The notes under the pieces were generated by a model. That model worked only from the letters and a program-made list of their open reading frames with translations. It was not told where the DNA came from and made no database searches. A stretch of 64,000 nt of DNA from Mesorhizobium sp. SARCC-RB16n (GTDB lineage: Bacteria; Pseudomonadota; Alphaproteobacteria; Rhizobiales; Rhizobiaceae), in contig NZ_ML703285.1 in the NCBI RefSeq assembly GCF_008520305.1, positions 62,001 through 126,000 on the forward strand, written 5' to 3'. Each line of letters begins with the position of its first letter. Within the stretch, counting starts at the first letter, position 1. The position numbers and the translations under genes were made by a program. Of the stretch, positions 27,572 through 34,697 are shown one piece after another.

Positions 27572-28894
27572 GTGTCGGACGAGACGTCCAATCTTGAATT
27601 CCAGCCGCGCAGCCAGGGCAGCGTCATGGGCTTTCCGGCGCATGAAGGCCGGCCCGGCGCGCTCGGCGAGGTTCATGCCCGCCCACATCCGCTGGTCGAG
27701 AAACCGCGTGTGCTCGTCCAGCTCTCCTTCATGACCGAAGGAGGTTCCGCGGTCGACCATGCCGTGCTTTCAGAGCTGTCGCGCCGCCTCGGCATCGCCG
27801 CCCCCGAGCGTCATGCCCGCCACCACGCCATGAAATGGGGCAAGGGCACGCTGCGCTGGGAGCGGCATACGGAATTTTCGACCTATCTCTGGGAAGGGCC
27901 GCTGGCCGAGAATGGCCGGGGCCAAGAGGATTCGCCCTTCGGCAATGGCTTTTCGCCGCCGGGAACCGTCATCTCGGGCATCCGGCTCGAGATCCGTAAA
28001 TGGACGCAGGCAGCCGAACGGCTGGTCGCCGGTTTCGACCCAACCAGCCTGAGTTACTCGGTGGTCGAGCGCGGCAATGCGGCCATCGTAACCGACTTCC
28101 GCCAGGACGGCGACGGCATGACCCGCATGCTGGTGCTCGACCGTGGTCTGACTCCGGCCAGCACGGGCGCGCTGTCGCAGCGGCTGATCGACATCGAGAC
28201 CTACCGCACGCTTGCCATGCTCGGCCTGCCGCTGGCGCTCACCTTGTCCGGCCGCGCTCGCCGCATCGAGGATCGCCTGGCCCAGACGACGCTGGAAATG
28301 AAGGTGGCCGAGACCCGCGACAGCCAGACGCTGCTCGCCGACCTGACTGAACTCGCGGCCGAATTGGAGGCCGACGCTGCCTCCAGCCTCTACCGCTTCG
28401 GCGCCAGCCGCGCCTATGATGGGATCGTCACGGAAAGGCTGGAGGCCCTGGATGAGGAGCCTGTGCAGGGCTACGACACCTGGGCGGGCTTTCTGCTGCG
28501 ACGCATGGCGCCAGCCATGCGCACCTGCCGCTCGGTCGAGGAGCGCCAGGCCAATCTGTCACGCAAGCTGACCCGTGCCACCACGCTGCTGCGCACCTGG
28601 GTCGACGTCGAGGTCGAAAAGCAGAACCGCGACCTGCTCGCCTCGATGAACAACCGGGCCCGCCTGCAATTGCGCCTGCAGCAGACCGTCGAAGGCCTCT
28701 CGGTCGCCGCCGTCTCCTATTACGTCGTAGGCCTCATCGGCTATGTCGCCAAAGGTGCGTCAGTCTTTGGCCACGCCTTCGCGCCGGAGGTCGTCACTGC
28801 CGCATCGGTGCCGGTCGCCATTCTCCTGGTCTGGTGGGGCGTGCGCCGTGTGCGTCGCATGCATTCCGAGCCGGCCAAACATCCGGGCGAATAG
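27572..28894 (+). CDS. DUF3422 family membrane-associated protein
   Basis: A 440-residue protein matching DUF3422 in form: N-terminal GEVHARPHPLVEKPR, a middle ERHTEFSTYLWEG, long helices, and two C-terminal hydrophobic segments (VAAVSYYVVGLIGYVA and APEVVTAASVPVAILLVWW) followed by a basic tail. Function unknown; a membrane-anchored cytoplasmic protein is likely. The start is GTG at 27572 with a strong AGGGGG site; a TTG 51 bases earlier is less likely. It is divergent from the lactate regulator and precedes glcD, but no link is proved. Confidence 0.82.
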   Translation: MSDETSNLEFQPRSQGSVMGFPAHEGRPGALGEVHARPHPLVEKPRVLVQLSFMTEGGSAVDHAVLSELSRRLGIAAPERHARHHAMKWGKGTLRWERHTEFSTYLWEGPLAENGRGQEDSPFGNGFSPPGTVISGIRLEIRKWTQAAERLVAGFDPTSLSYSVVERGNAAIVTDFRQDGDGMTRMLVLDRGLTPASTGALSQRLIDIETYRTLAMLGLPLALTLSGRARRIEDRLAQTTLEMKVAETRDSQTLLADLTELAAELEADAASSLYRFGASRAYDGIVTERLEALDEEPVQGYDTWAGFLLRRMAPAMRTCRSVEERQANLSRKLTRATTLLRTWVDVEVEKQNRDLLASMNNRARLQLRLQQTVEGLSVAAVSYYVVGLIGYVAKGASVFGHAFAPEVVTAASVPVAILLVWWGVRRVRRMHSEPAKHPGE

Positions 28895-29010
28895 TCCGCT
28901 CTACGCCTCAAGCGCTATGGATGTGCAGCGGCAGATTGCCGCTGCGGAAGCTTTGCCTGCCTCCGCCGCCCGGAGACTACCAAAGCAAGGTTTGCAACAA
29001 ATGTCGCTAG

Positions 29011-29031
29011 CTGGTAAATCATTTTTACCAG
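29011..29031. promoter_or_regulatory. Perfect 8-bp inverted repeat before glcD, candidate operator
   Basis: CTGGTAAA (29011-29018) and TTTACCAG (29024-29031) around five bases, ending 19 bases before the glcD start. It resembles the site at 27421. A bound repressor here would cover the start region of glcDEF. Confidence 0.55.
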
Positions 29032-29050
29032 TCGAGTGGAGGAAGTGCCG

Positions 29051-30547
29051 ATGTCCGGCCTTGCCATGCCCAAGCCAGACGCCGGGACGCTGCGCCGGCG
29101 CAACGAAATCGTCGCCGACATGCGCATCATCGTGCCGGGCGAGGGCGTGGTCGACGCCGCCAATGAAATGCGCGCCTTCGAAAGCGATGGTCTGACCGCC
29201 TACCGGCAAGTGCCGCTGGTCGTGGTCCTGCCCGAGACGGTGGCGCAGGTCTCGCGCGTGCTGAAATACTGCAACGACCGCAACATCCGCGTCGTGCCGC
29301 GCGGCTCCGGCACCTCGCTGTCCGGCGGCGCGCTGCCGCTGGAGGACGCGGTGCTGCTCGTCATGAGCCGGTTCAACCGCATCCTCCAGATCGATTTTCC
29401 CAACCGCATTGTCGTAGCCCAGCCGGGCGTCACCAATCTCGGCATTACCACCGCCGTCGAGGAGGAGGGCTTTTACTACGCCCCGGATCCATCCTCCCAG
29501 ATCGCCTGCTCGATCGGCGGCAACGTGGCCGAGAACTCCGGCGGCGTGCACTGCCTGAAATACGGCCTCACCGCCAACAATGTGCTGGGCATCGAGATAG
29601 TGCTGATGAATGGCGAGGTGGTGAGGCTCGGCGGCGGCCACCTCGACGCGGAAGGCTATGACCTGCTCGGCGTCATGACCGGCTCGGAAGGTTTGCTCGG
29701 CGTCGTCACCGAGGTCACAGTGCGCATCCTGAAGAAGCCGGAGACCGCGCGCGCCCTGCTGATCGGCTTTCCGACCAGCGAGCAGGGAGGCCAGTGCGTC
29801 GCCGACATCATCGGCGCCGGCATCATTCCCGGCGGCATGGAAATGATGGACCGGCCGGCGATCCATGCTGCCGAGGATTTCGTCCATGCCGGCTATCCCC
29901 TCGACGTCGAGGCGCTGCTGATCGTCGAACTCGATGGCCCGAGCGTCGAGGTCGACCACCTCATCACCGCCGTCGAGGCGATCGCCATCCGCAACGGCTC
30001 GACCACCTGCCGTATCTCGCAATCCGAGCAGGAGAGGCTGAGTTTTTGGGCCGGCCGCAAGGCAGCGTTCCCCGCGGTCGGCCGCATCTCGCCCGATTAC
30101 TACTGCATGGACGGCACCATCCCGCGCAAGGAACTGCCGCGCGTCCTGCACGGCATGCGCGAGCTGTCGGAAAAATACGGTCTCGGCGTCGCCAATGTTT
30201 TTCACGCTGGCGACGGCAATCTGCACCCGCTGATCCTCTACGATGCCAACGTGCCGGGTGAACTCGACAAGGCCGAAAGCTTTGGCGCCGACATTTTGCG
30301 GCTCTGCGTCAAGGTCGGCGGTGTCTTGACCGGCGAGCATGGCGTCGGGGTCGAAAAGCGCGACCTGATGCCGGAAATGTTCAACCAGGTCGATCTCGAC
30401 CAGCAGATGCGCGTCAAATGCGCCTTCGATCCCAATCATCTGCTCAATCCCGGAAAGGTGTTCCCGCAATTACGCCGTTGCGCGGAACTCGGTCGCATGC
30501 ACGTGCATCGCGGGCAGGTGGCGTTTCCCGACATTCCGAGGTTTTGA
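29051..30547 (+). CDS. glcD: Glycolate oxidase FAD-binding subunit GlcD
   Basis: A 498-residue flavoprotein that oxidises glycolate (or D-lactate) to glyoxylate. It shows the PCMH FAD site (VVPRGSGTSLSGGA), GGNVAENSGGVHCLKYG, and the C-terminal HAGDGNLHPL and GEHGVGVEKR. The ATG at 29051 follows GTGGAGGAAGTGCC and gives the usual length. Normally glcE follows directly; here a DUF559 gene with flanking repeats lies between. Confidence 0.93.
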   Translation: MSGLAMPKPDAGTLRRRNEIVADMRIIVPGEGVVDAANEMRAFESDGLTAYRQVPLVVVLPETVAQVSRVLKYCNDRNIRVVPRGSGTSLSGGALPLEDAVLLVMSRFNRILQIDFPNRIVVAQPGVTNLGITTAVEEEGFYYAPDPSSQIACSIGGNVAENSGGVHCLKYGLTANNVLGIEIVLMNGEVVRLGGGHLDAEGYDLLGVMTGSEGLLGVVTEVTVRILKKPETARALLIGFPTSEQGGQCVADIIGAGIIPGGMEMMDRPAIHAAEDFVHAGYPLDVEALLIVELDGPSVEVDHLITAVEAIAIRNGSTTCRISQSEQERLSFWAGRKAAFPAVGRISPDYYCMDGTIPRKELPRVLHGMRELSEKYGLGVANVFHAGDGNLHPLILYDANVPGELDKAESFGADILRLCVKVGGVLTGEHGVGVEKRDLMPEMFNQVDLDQQMRVKCAFDPNHLLNPGKVFPQLRRCAELGRMHVHRGQVAFPDIPRF

Positions 30548-30548
30548 G

Positions 30549-31067
30549 ATGACGGGGCCGCAGAACTTGGGTTCCTCGCCCCCGCAAAGCGGGGGAGAGG
30601 TGGCTCGGGCGGAGCCCGAGACGGAGAGGGGGCCTGCGACCGACGTGCCAAGCCGCCGCTCACCTGAAAGGATCGCCCGCGCCCGCGCGCTTCGCCAGGG
30701 CGACAATCAAGCGGAGGCAGTTCTCTGGAGCGAGTTGAAGGCAAAACGCCTCGCTGGCTACAAATTCATCCGTCAGATGCCTGTCGGACCTTATTTCGCG
30801 GACTTTGCCTGCCGTAGCGAAAAGCTGGTTGTCGAATTGGACGGAAGCCAGCACGCAGAGAGTTCCTACGACAGACGGCGCGATGAATTTATGCGCGGCG
30901 AGGGCTTTTCGGTGCTGCGTTTCTGGAATGTCGATGTTCTCAAGACTCGCCGGACTGTCTGCGAGATCATTCTTGCCGTGCTCGAGGGGCGATTAGCCGA
31001 AGACGTGGTCGCCACGGATCTGAGGTTCGTTTTCGCAGCCAAGAAAATTGGAGGCGACGCTCTATGA
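30549..31067 (+). CDS. DUF559 endonuclease-like protein inside a repeat-flanked cassette
   Basis: A 172-residue protein. Residues 40-145 form a DUF559 domain (Vsr-like fold): GDNQAEAVLW (Glu56), PYFADFACR (Asp85) and VVELDGSQHA (Glu96, Asp98, His102), a plausible nuclease site. The first 35 residues (SSPPQSGGEVARAEPETERG) are encoded by the left 65-bp repeat. The ATG lies one base after the glcD stop and the TGA one base before the right repeat. It looks like an insertion into the glc operon, perhaps a mobile or homing-type nuclease; activity is untested. Confidence 0.8.
   Translation: MTGPQNLGSSPPQSGGEVARAEPETERGPATDVPSRRSPERIARARALRQGDNQAEAVLWSELKAKRLAGYKFIRQMPVGPYFADFACRSEKLVVELDGSQHAESSYDRRRDEFMRGEGFSVLRFWNVDVLKTRRTVCEIILAVLEGRLAEDVVATDLRFVFAAKKIGGDAL
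30570..30634 (+). repeat. Left 65-bp inverted repeat of the DUF559 cassette
   Basis: Matches the reverse complement of 31069-31133 with one mismatch. It holds two internal hairpins: CCCCCGC-AAA-GCGGGGG and CTCGGGC-GGA-GCCCGAG, like REP elements. It is translated as part of the DUF559 protein. Confidence 0.9.
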
Positions 31068-31068
31068 T

Positions 31069-31133
31069 GGCCCCCTCTCCGTCTCGGGCTTCGCCCGAGC
31101 CACCTCTCCCCCGCTTTGCGGGGGCGAGGAACC
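31069..31133 (-). repeat. Right 65-bp inverted repeat of the DUF559 cassette
   Basis: Inverse copy of 30570-30634, differing only in the loop of one hairpin. It starts one base after the DUF559 stop and ends 10 bases before the glcE start, so it now forms the glcE leader. Confidence 0.9.
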
Positions 31134-31143
31134 AGGTGCGAAT

Positions 31144-32349
31144 ATGAGCATCTTCACCCCCCTTACCCCAGATGAAGTCCTCTCTACCGTCGCCTGGGCC
31201 GCGGCGGAAGAGTCGCCGCTCGAAATCATCGGCCACGGCTCAAAGCGCGGCATTGGCCGTCCGTTGCAGACCGAGCATACACTCGACCTGTCGAAACTCT
31301 CGGGCGTGACCCTTTATGAACCGGCCGAACTGGTGCTGTCGGCCAAATCAGGCACGCCGCTGGCCGAGGTCGACAAGCTGCTGGCTGAAAATGGCCAGCA
31401 ACTCGCCTTCGAGCCGATGGACTACGGCCCGCTGCTCGGCGGCAAGCCGGGCAAAGGCACCATCGGCGGCGTGCTCGGCACCAACCTGTGCGGCCCGCGC
31501 CGGCTGAAGGCGGGCGCCGCGCGCGATCATATCCTCGGCATCAATGTCGTCTCCGGCCGAGGCGAGGCCTTCAAGTCGGGCGGCCGCGTGGTCAAGAATG
31601 TCACCGGCTATGATCTCTCCAAGCTGATGGCCAACAGCTGGGGCACGCTGGCCGTGTTCACCGACGTCACCTTCAAGGTGCTGCCGGCAGCCGAGACCGA
31701 GGTGACGCTCGCCGTCCGTGGGCTGCTCGACGATGCCGCAGCGAGCGCCATGGCTCTGGCGCTCGGCTCAAGCGCGGAAGTGTCGAGCGCTGCCCACTTG
31801 CCGGAGCGCATCGCCGCGCGCGTGGCGGGCGGTGCGCTCGGCAGTGAAGCCGCCACGCTGCTGCGCGTCGAAGGCTTTGGCCCGTCCGTTGCTTACCGCA
31901 TCACCGCGCTGAAGACACTGCTTGGCAAGGCCGGGCCGCTGGAGGAGATTGCCAGTGAGACCTCCAAGGCAATCTGGCGCGACGTGCGCGATATCAGGCC
32001 CTTCGTCGATGGCAGCGAGAAGCCGGTCTGGCGGGTCTCGATGACGCCCGCCCAGGGGCATCAGATGGTGCTGACGCTGCGCATGCAGGCCGCCGTCAGT
32101 GCCTTCTACGACTGGCAGGGTGGGCTGGTGTGGCTGCGCATGGAGGGAGGCGAACCGGAAGCCGCCTTGCTGCGCGGGCTTCTAAAAAAACATGGCGGCG
32201 GCCACGCGACGCTGGTGCGCGCTACCCCTTCTCATCGGGCGGCCCTGGCGGTGTTCGAGCCGCAGGCGCCGGCGTTGGCGGCGCTCAGCCAGCGGCTGAA
32301 ACAGGAATTCGACCCGAAGAACATCCTCAATCCCGGCCGCATGGCCTAG
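31144..32349 (+). CDS. glcE: Glycolate oxidase subunit GlcE
   Basis: A 401-residue FAD-binding subunit of glycolate oxidase. Family marks are IIGHGSKRGIGRP, FEPMDYGPLLGG, GKGTIGGVLGTNLCGPRR, GRVVKNVTGYDLSKLM and the terminal FDPKNILNPGRM. The ATG at 31144 gives the standard N-terminus; the longer frame to 31048 would translate the right repeat. The sequence before the ATG, GAACCAGGTGCGAAT, comes partly from the repeat, so the insertion may have changed its ribosome site. Confidence 0.92.
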   Translation: MSIFTPLTPDEVLSTVAWAAAEESPLEIIGHGSKRGIGRPLQTEHTLDLSKLSGVTLYEPAELVLSAKSGTPLAEVDKLLAENGQQLAFEPMDYGPLLGGKPGKGTIGGVLGTNLCGPRRLKAGAARDHILGINVVSGRGEAFKSGGRVVKNVTGYDLSKLMANSWGTLAVFTDVTFKVLPAAETEVTLAVRGLLDDAAASAMALALGSSAEVSSAAHLPERIAARVAGGALGSEAATLLRVEGFGPSVAYRITALKTLLGKAGPLEEIASETSKAIWRDVRDIRPFVDGSEKPVWRVSMTPAQGHQMVLTLRMQAAVSAFYDWQGGLVWLRMEGGEPEAALLRGLLKKHGGGHATLVRATPSHRAALAVFEPQAPALAALSQRLKQEFDPKNILNPGRMA

Positions 32350-33689: not shown

Positions 33690-34697
33690 ATGACCGATTT
33701 GGAAACGCTGGAGATCGAAACCGTCGTTCGGCTGTTGTCGAAGACGCCGCGGCTGACACGCCAGGCGCGCTATGAAGAGTGCACGGCAATCGTGGCTCGG
33801 CACCTGAGCGGCGGATCTGAATTCCTGTTTGCGCTGATCAAGGCAGCTATCAAAGCCGGTGTCCATCAGACCCCTTTGATCGAAGATGCCGTTTCGTTTC
33901 TCGATGATGCGGGCCTGGCCCGTCTTGCATTCTTTCTGCAAGGGGAGGCGAAGCGCGGGACCGATGTCGATGACCTGTTGTCGGGAGCAGCTTTGCAGCA
34001 GCCTAACCTGTTCCCGGACGACGTGCTGGCGAATATTCCCGATTTCGAAGACTGGCTGACCCATGCCGATCCTCGCTCACCCCCCGGATGTCATCACCTT
34101 GTCTTTGAAGGCGGTGCGCCGGACGACCCGTTCTTTCCAACACGCGTCAATCATCCCACCTGGCATCTGCCGACGGCGGGGCAGCCATTCACGATCGGTG
34201 GTGAAGGAACGGGTCAATGTCCAACTTGCAGCGAAAGGCTGGCGCATCTGATCACCCTGGACAACTTCGGTGTCTCGGCAAATTTGTCTCTGCCTCGGCT
34301 TCGCATCGAGACGTGCCATGGCTCACTGGAGGTCACCTTTTACGTGCATGATGAAGAGGGCAGGCCGACTCCGATTGCACCATTTCACTCCGACAACGAT
34401 TTCACGCCTCAACCGATGACGAGGAAGAGCACAGTCCGTCTGGCGCCCACACCGCCACGCTGGCTTAGGCAGTCCTACGGAACAAGCAATTCGCGGCAGA
34501 ACCTGTTCCGGCTCGGCGGACTGCCGTCCTGGGTTCAGGGACCGCAATTTCCGGTAGTTCCCGGAACGGACCGGCCAATGAAATTCTTGCTGCAGTTTGA
34601 TTCGCTGGCCGGTTTCTTCTGGGGCAGCGGCGGCATGCTCTACATCTTCTGGGACGAGGAGAGCCGCATGACCTGCCACGTGCCGCAATACACCTGA
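33690..34697 (+). CDS. DUF1963/YwqG-like protein
   Basis: A 335-residue protein. The C-terminal 80 residues (FRLGGLPSWVQGPQFPV, KFLLQFDS, GGMLYIFWDEES) fit the DUF1963 fold of YwqG-like proteins, which often occur beside toxin-immunity or unknown genes. The N-terminal 110 residues are helical and not recognised. CPTCSER (about residues 170-176) is a possible metal site. No operon partner of clear relation; it follows glcF by 31 bases on the same strand. Function unknown. Confidence 0.6.
   Translation: MTDLETLEIETVVRLLSKTPRLTRQARYEECTAIVARHLSGGSEFLFALIKAAIKAGVHQTPLIEDAVSFLDDAGLARLAFFLQGEAKRGTDVDDLLSGAALQQPNLFPDDVLANIPDFEDWLTHADPRSPPGCHHLVFEGGAPDDPFFPTRVNHPTWHLPTAGQPFTIGGEGTGQCPTCSERLAHLITLDNFGVSANLSLPRLRIETCHGSLEVTFYVHDEEGRPTPIAPFHSDNDFTPQPMTRKSTVRLAPTPPRWLRQSYGTSNSRQNLFRLGGLPSWVQGPQFPVVPGTDRPMKFLLQFDSLAGFFWGSGGMLYIFWDEESRMTCHVPQYT

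Follow-up and report, generated by a model that had tools for sequence, protein, structure and literature searches.

Short palindromes are among the commonest bacterial repeats. The closest described relatives of the system reported here are the repetitive extragenic palindromic (REP) sequences, whose doublets are known as REPINs (PMC3116915), together with the genes for REP-associated tyrosine transposases (RAYT, also TnpA-REP), which have flanking REPs (PMC3733652). A 2013 survey distinguishes two REP superfamilies: GTAG, which is tied to RAYT, and CGTC, whose members 'apparently lack a dedicated transposase' and which are an example of families with no known enzyme (PMC3733652). Here we describe a 566-bp element at positions 30567..31132 (+ strand) of a 64,000-nucleotide stretch of Mesorhizobium sp. 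SARCC-RB16n (contig NZ_ML703285.1; the whole stretch is referred to as the window), in which a gene of the DUF559 family, encoding a Vsr-like nuclease, stands between two inverted palindromic units in the glc operon. The pairing of DUF559 genes with such palindromes is widespread, and points to an overlooked kind of REP-like system.

The two palindromic units, referred to here as arms, are each 65 nt long and are spaced 434 nt apart. The left arm lies at 30570..30634 on the + strand, with a G-rich tail towards the gene, and the right arm, at 31069..31133 on the - strand, is an inverted copy of it with one mismatch (98% complementary). They form the longest of the 93 inverted-repeat pairs reported within the 64-kb window. 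The score for flanking inverted repeats does not exceed 15.5 at 145 control positions in the window, and the same score, worked out by hand for the window arms (65 nt, one mismatch), is 62.5. Folded as single-stranded DNA, each arm gives two hairpins, with z values of -4.1 and -4.2 and none of 200 shuffled sequences folding equally well. With up to three mismatches allowed, the hairpin core is found in the window in these two arms only.

The gene is an open reading frame (ORF) of 172 aa at 30549..31067 (+), which starts one base past the glcD stop codon (30547) and ends one base short of the right arm. Residues 42-145 (30672..30983, +) match the DUF559 profile PF04480 with E 3.9e-35 and 120.4 bits, against a curated cut-off of 20.6, which places the product in the family. 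The fold of DUF559 is that of the Vsr and homing-endonuclease catalytic domain, and the product is on this basis a Vsr-fold protein; across 189 DUF559 cores the residues E56, Q76, D85, E96, D98, G99, H102 and R124 are near-invariant. The original prediction for this locus had described a DUF559 gene bracketed by 65-bp inverted repeats in the glc operon, one base from glcD and from the right repeat, with one mismatch between the repeats, two hairpins in each and the glc frames left intact. The coordinates, the repeat search and the folding all bear this out. Its further claim, that the left repeat is translated into the protein, stands in part: the left arm does fall inside the long ORF, at about codons 8-29, but in locus L024, where the arm is split into two partial matches, the protein match begins at residue 19, and the stretch up to about residue 30 thus need not be translated. 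An in-frame GTG at 30645 is one possible start.

The arm is also a dispersed repeat. In 12 related genomes there are 328 matches, at 9-56 per genome, and the unit occurs both alone and with DUF559. The layout was read on 150 listed positions. Among these listed copies, 90 are single, 44 fall into 22 close pairs and 16 into eight pairs at gene distance. The close pairs are 12-95 nt apart; 18 are inverted as the arms of the element are, and four in the opposite sense. The eight wider pairs, at 433-437 nt, all enclose a DUF559 match and represent the glc locus, and no pair was found among the listed copies at any other distance up to 1500 nt. Over the 104 distinct copies compared, pairing holds in 91% of stem cells, as against 43-56% when the partners are slid. 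Several pairs have changed on both sides of the stem; at pair 15-21, for example, 14 copies have A-T in place of G-C. A G.A mismatch at pair 9-27 is present in 93 of the 104. Because the stems stay paired with changes on both sides, the alignment indicates that the arm units are maintained as hairpins. At 22 loci with two full arms (the window included), the mean number of differences is 2.8/65 in left arms and 4.1/65 in right arms, at a median dS (synonymous divergence) of 0.77. No concerted evolution of left and right arms was detected, the within-locus difference being 3.9/65, with 633 of 5000 permutations as low.

One locus (L034:774-3019) contains two full arm-gene-arm units about 1085 bp apart and an adjoining gene-less doublet. 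The doublet arms are 49 nt apart, and their inner ends resemble those of the neighbouring full elements. Two DUF559 matches at similar spacing are also present in genomes G788, G801 and G815. The neighbouring units of L034 and L045 were considered as evidence of mobility and rejected, since their similar outer flanks make them look like local duplication and not transposition.

The pairing is not confined to glc. A DUF559 gene was counted as bracketed when its flanking inverted repeat scored above all controls. This applies to 16 of 29 testable loci (30 loci in all) in 12 Mesorhizobium-type genomes. In a set of 289 alphaproteobacterial genomes, 93 with any DUF559 match, 90 loci were chosen by rank; 54 of the 87 testable ones are bracketed, compared with none of 162 off-centre windows at the same loci. 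A further sample of new loci from 249 Pseudomonadota, a few of them again Mesorhizobium loci, gave 16 of 25 testable. Recounting with duplicates removed and with other domain borders gave 16/29, 55/87 and 15/25. A hairpin pattern is present on at least one side of 59/87 alphaproteobacterial and 20/25 new DUF559 loci, against 2/164 and 0/48 control windows. These results bear on the suggestion that independent palindromes simply landed on either side of the gene, the glcD-glcE junction being a repeat-collecting place. The junction does collect repeats, arm motifs of another palindrome family being present at 49 of 109 Mesorhizobium junctions in a motif test. However, all eight gene-distance pairs among the listed copies enclose DUF559, and the recurrence of bracketing in three samples and in none of the off-centre controls already contradicts a chance arrangement, which we regard as scarcely credible.

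The gene and the palindrome not only co-occur, they co-vary. Many DUF559 groups share a common arm plan with differing sequences, in which a CCCTCTCCC-type hairpin, in some cases joined by another hairpin, comes with a G-rich tail. Arm similarity tracks DUF559 identity in a Mantel test on 106 distinct cores, in which the glc family weighs heavily (rho 0.39, 0/1000 permutations). Median arm similarity is 0.32 and 0.33 in the two classes below 50% protein identity, 0.90 at 70-85% and 0.97 above that.

The copies of the palindrome are dispersed, and their abundance follows the same gene. At least five hairpins are found in 50 of the 68 alphaproteobacterial genomes with strong DUF559 matches, and in 14 of the 221 without (odds ratio 41, p 5e-28, kinship ignored). 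The association also holds inside three genome-size bins, and the reversed hairpin pattern is nearly absent from the 289 genomes, bar one genome with 48. For PF01797, the family of the Y1 transposase RAYT, the same threshold is reached by 13/58 genomes with it and 51/231 without it (odds ratio 1.02, p 1.0). Sorted by both families, it is reached by 1/40 genomes with Y1 only, 38/50 with DUF559 only, 12/18 with both and 13/181 with neither. The original prediction had a Vsr-like nuclease, in place of a RAYT, going with REP-type palindromes, and in bracketing, abundance and cognacy this holds far beyond glc.

On the basis of these observations, we hypothesise with moderate confidence that the element in the window is a copy of a REP-like system that carries its gene, with DUF559 between two cognate palindrome units, in which the nuclease would cut the folded palindrome and so allow the units to spread. 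We read DUF559 as an enzyme dedicated to a superfamily of REP-like palindromes, the analogue and not the homologue of RAYT. On the model of RAYT and REPINs, it would recognise its folded cognate palindrome, as a hairpin or a cruciform, and would nick or cut at the palindrome foot, and the palindrome units could then be copied or moved during replication or repair. The cognate palindrome also populates the genome as single hairpins and inverted doublets, and doublets would arise by loss of the gene that separates a pair of arms. Singlets and doublets would spread, and the gene would mostly be inherited in place and be lost by deletion between the arms. What the data show is the association of gene and palindrome and its features; we infer the cutting of palindromes by DUF559, cutting as what copies and spreads them, and any benefit or cost to the host.

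An alternative role would be that of a policing or repair nuclease, in which DUF559 serves the host by cutting or repairing hairpins, cruciforms or mismatches, the palindromes spread in some other way, and the arms are targets or regulatory sites. The glc-junction proteins are indeed under strong purifying selection, with a median ratio of nonsynonymous to synonymous divergence (dN/dS) of 0.072, calculated from the 91 of 861 possible pairs with dS of 0.05-1 (the others were dropped; median dS 0.77). This selection, long vertical inheritance at glc and the Vsr-like fold would all suit such a role. In addition, VsrA of Caulobacter, a DUF559 protein, has been proposed to act in very short patch (VSP) repair, in passages that mention no role in repeats (PMC12907096). 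Policing is less good at explaining why the repeats on either side of the gene are the ones it would police, and why the arm family tracks the DUF559 clade; nor was another palindrome-spreading enzyme identified, with PF01797 alone examined. We consider policing an unlikely account of the pairing, though one to be taken seriously.

At the glc locus itself the order is glcD (29054..30547, +, stop at 30547), the DUF559 ORF, glcE (31144..32349, +, start at 31144) and then glcF. The neighbours were identified by profile matches as encoding GlcD, GlcE and GlcF, and their frames are all open. The gene adjoins glc genes in 26 of 32 relatives found by protein, one of the 26 (L023) ending at a contig end. 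A search of 247 genomes of the family gave a glcE match in 220, and the best 30 loci were read. Among the 30, glcD is beside glcE in 29, of which 11 have DUF559 and four a clean stop-start overlap; the other junctions are short, scarred or occupied by other genes. In a genus sample of 109 Mesorhizobium genomes, four of which overlap the family set, all junctions were read: 24 have DUF559, 31 have an arm match without DUF559, and 54 have neither. Filled, scarred and empty junctions coexist in the genus.

Seven of the genus junctions are only 2-32 nt long. One of these, L299, reads TGA-GATGATGGGGCCGCAGAAC followed directly by CAGGTGCGAAT-ATG, and the window flanks are identical to it bar one base. 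The 566-bp element present in the window is missing here, between CAGAAC and CAGG. Against L299, the window element has GAAC at either end, which may be a 4-bp duplication or chance. A single fused hairpin replaces the element in L291, L295 and L324 (by a strict pattern) and in L247, L250 and L323 (by eye). The original prediction would have been at odds with a gene present at this site in all relatives, with no empty sites and no repeat copies elsewhere; arm copies elsewhere and empty junctions both exist.

The other palindrome family referred to above is found, by the same motif test, at 31 of the 54 junctions with neither DUF559 nor an arm match, and it flanks DUF559 genes elsewhere (L038, L042, L051, L059). 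The glcD-glcE junction seems to accumulate palindromes of several families. At the 49 junctions with the other family (L242, L261 and L327, for example), about 200 nt with inverted arms ATCTCCCCC / CAGGACAGAGGGG form a gene-less doublet resembling a miniature inverted-repeat transposable element (MITE). Gaps of 582-585 nt with a coding-looking insert, and no DUF559 or arm match, are found in L252, L253, L264, L273, L296 and L301, and the gaps of 715 and 708 nt in L102 and L103 hold an insert that by eye resembles a gene pair of toxin-antitoxin type.

The history of the site was followed in a FastTree phylogeny built from 189 distinct DUF559 cores, with 107 columns and many forks left open. A branch with support 86 (not starred) has all 42 distinct proteins of the glc junction on one side, and therefore the glc site was probably occupied once, the gene then being inherited and lost. 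Its presence and absence require at least 19 changes on the 107-row glcD/E tree, eight of them forced by starred (well supported) branches. Most simply, the gene arrived once, long ago, and was lost many times, possibly with some exchange among relatives. The mobile unit of the original prediction, understood as an active hopper at this site, is not supported. A homing-type element has also been considered, in which the nuclease would cut gene-less sites and be copied into them by repair, the arms being borders recruited from resident palindromes. A single lineage at glc with many losses fits this poorly, as do the dozens of arm copies without a gene in each genome and the presence of cognate arms at many different loci, and we judge homing improbable.

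Several observations weigh against our preferred reading, that DUF559 spreads its cognate palindromes. Neither cutting nor movement was observed. At glc, fused hairpins and lone arms attest to decay, and the element appears to be an old single lineage and not a recent hopper. With GAAC at either end of the element, an original and a restored site look alike, and L299 may be a precise loss and not the original empty state. Arm copy number in Mesorhizobium compared with presence of the glc gene gives medians of 32.5 and 20 (p 0.003 uncorrected; these are first-look candidate counts, with eight candidates scored per genome), but on seven independent pairs there was no signal. In the alphaproteobacterial sample, 33 of the 87 loci have no flanking inverted repeat, and some of the short 'inverted' cases consist of one palindrome per side, for which inverted and direct are indistinguishable. 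The class-wide correlation was computed without phylogenetic correction, and there are discordant genomes, 14 with at least five hairpins and no strong DUF559 and 18 the reverse. Finally, the DUF559 search has gaps, the E. coli control being silent though K-12 has ycjD.

Eight named loci from further lineages were each viewed once with the same bracket score, and four pass. The DUF559 gene on pSymB of Sinorhizobium meliloti (L344:1480-1884) has 114-nt hairpin-containing inverted repeats with four mismatches; an ISRm16 transposase gene is located nearby. In Deinococcus proteolyticus the gene lies between 56-nt repeats with three mismatches, and in Sphingomonas it has a 23-nt palindrome on either side. 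A Picosynechococcus plasmid gene (L347:1474-1839) has a 22-nt CCCCTAAATCCCCAATTTGGGG-type inverted repeat that is barely over the limit, and the pairing may thus extend to Cyanobacteria. The loci of Azospirillum, Neisseria, Methylobacterium and E. coli fail the bracket score, and each has hairpins in its flanks.

In E. coli K-12 a multicopy CCCTCTCCCC hairpin (L341:2205-2242) is found about 165 nt past the end of ycjD (L341:2408-2761), on one side only. This repeat is probably BoxC, going by its copy number and length. It occurs at a median of 19 places per genome (5376 of 5426 E. coli genomes). The ycjD gene is present in 3365 of the 5426, and 3903 have at least 80% coverage of the ycjD-side query. 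Among 60 spread rows, one of which was a plasmid and was dropped, the median is 21 places in the 37 with at least 97% of the query and seven in the 22 others, a difference that is confounded by lineage and in which coverage is not the same as ycjD presence. Two ycjD-less strains were tried as empty sites and are not clean, because the far side of fabI is occupied by genes for TetR and efflux. E. coli remains viable when ycjD is deleted.

A bolder proposal is that DUF559 is a new mobilising class, in which a Vsr-like nuclease alone spreads cognate hairpins. It would explain a large share of the intergenic palindromes of CCCTCTCCC type in GC-rich bacteria, with E. coli YcjD and its repeat of about 20 copies (probably BoxC) as a model pair. 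Half of the named loci fail the bracket test, which weighs against it, and we advance it tentatively, as somewhat short of an even proposition. If true, it would supply the missing enzyme for REP-like families without a known transposase. A second, unrelated enzyme type with its own palindromes would imply more than one origin of REP-like systems. It would also give a role to a protein family still named DUF, and the question could then be put to the test in E. coli K-12, with ycjD, and in Caulobacter, in which two genes of this kind have been deleted (PMC12907096).

The remaining annotation of the window can be given briefly. Its nearest relatives are Mesorhizobium. No intrinsic terminators were found in a scan of 28800-31400, there was no Rfam match with E up to 1 over 30300-31400, and PHROGs gave no match; PADLOC gave a single weak partial match, to DpdF (E 0.0042). 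A 335-aa ORF directly after glcF (33690-34697) has no Pfam or NCBIfam match.

A literature search of titles and the beginnings of abstracts, with bioRxiv preprints and most subscription papers outside its scope, found no report connecting palindromic repeats with DUF559 or Vsr-like proteins. The words DUF559 and palindromic occur together in PMC8861277, in whose abstract CRISPR is spelled out, and in PMC9454445, on NAD in cancer. Of the described systems, Vsr has a known role next to Dcm in repairing T:G mismatches, whereas the neighbours of the window gene are glc genes, with no adjacent methyltransferase. The homing endonuclease I-Bth0305I also differs, the window having no intron or split gene, and dozens of gene-less copies of the repeat existing. 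An insertion sequence or MITE has terminal inverted repeats with a target-site duplication; the window element has the inverted ends, and the GAAC at either end may be such a duplication or chance. BoxC is listed as 22 copies of 50 nt (PMC2267715), and the ycjD-side repeat, with its median of 19, fits it in number and length by description, although it differs from the window in being on one side of its gene.

The REP families are the closest comparison. In the general sense the arm is a REP, being palindromic and having 9-56 matches per genome. By reading, it has neither GTAG nor CTAC, and therefore lacks the tag of the GTAG superfamily. The CGTC REPs are alike in having alphaproteobacterial hosts, and hairpin 2 of the window arm (CGT-CTCGGGC-TTC-GCCCGAG-CCA) has a CGTC-like head and a CCA tail. 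However, the CGTC stems described in the survey almost always begin with A-T pairs and have loops of 4-5 nt (PMC3733652), whereas hairpin 2 has no A-T start and a loop of 3 nt, and hairpin 1 is another sequence, so that the arm is not a CGTC REP as published. With REP/REPIN and RAYT the organisation is shared: short dispersed palindromes, single or in inverted doublets, and a dedicated gene flanked by its own units and long inherited in place. The enzyme is not shared, being a Y1 HUH transposase there and a Vsr-like nuclease here. Mesorhizobium genome G002 has 101 hairpins and six DUF559 matches with no PF01797 match, and the class-wide association with Y1 is absent. What is new here is a set of REP-like repeats with a dedicated gene, but with an unrelated type of enzyme.
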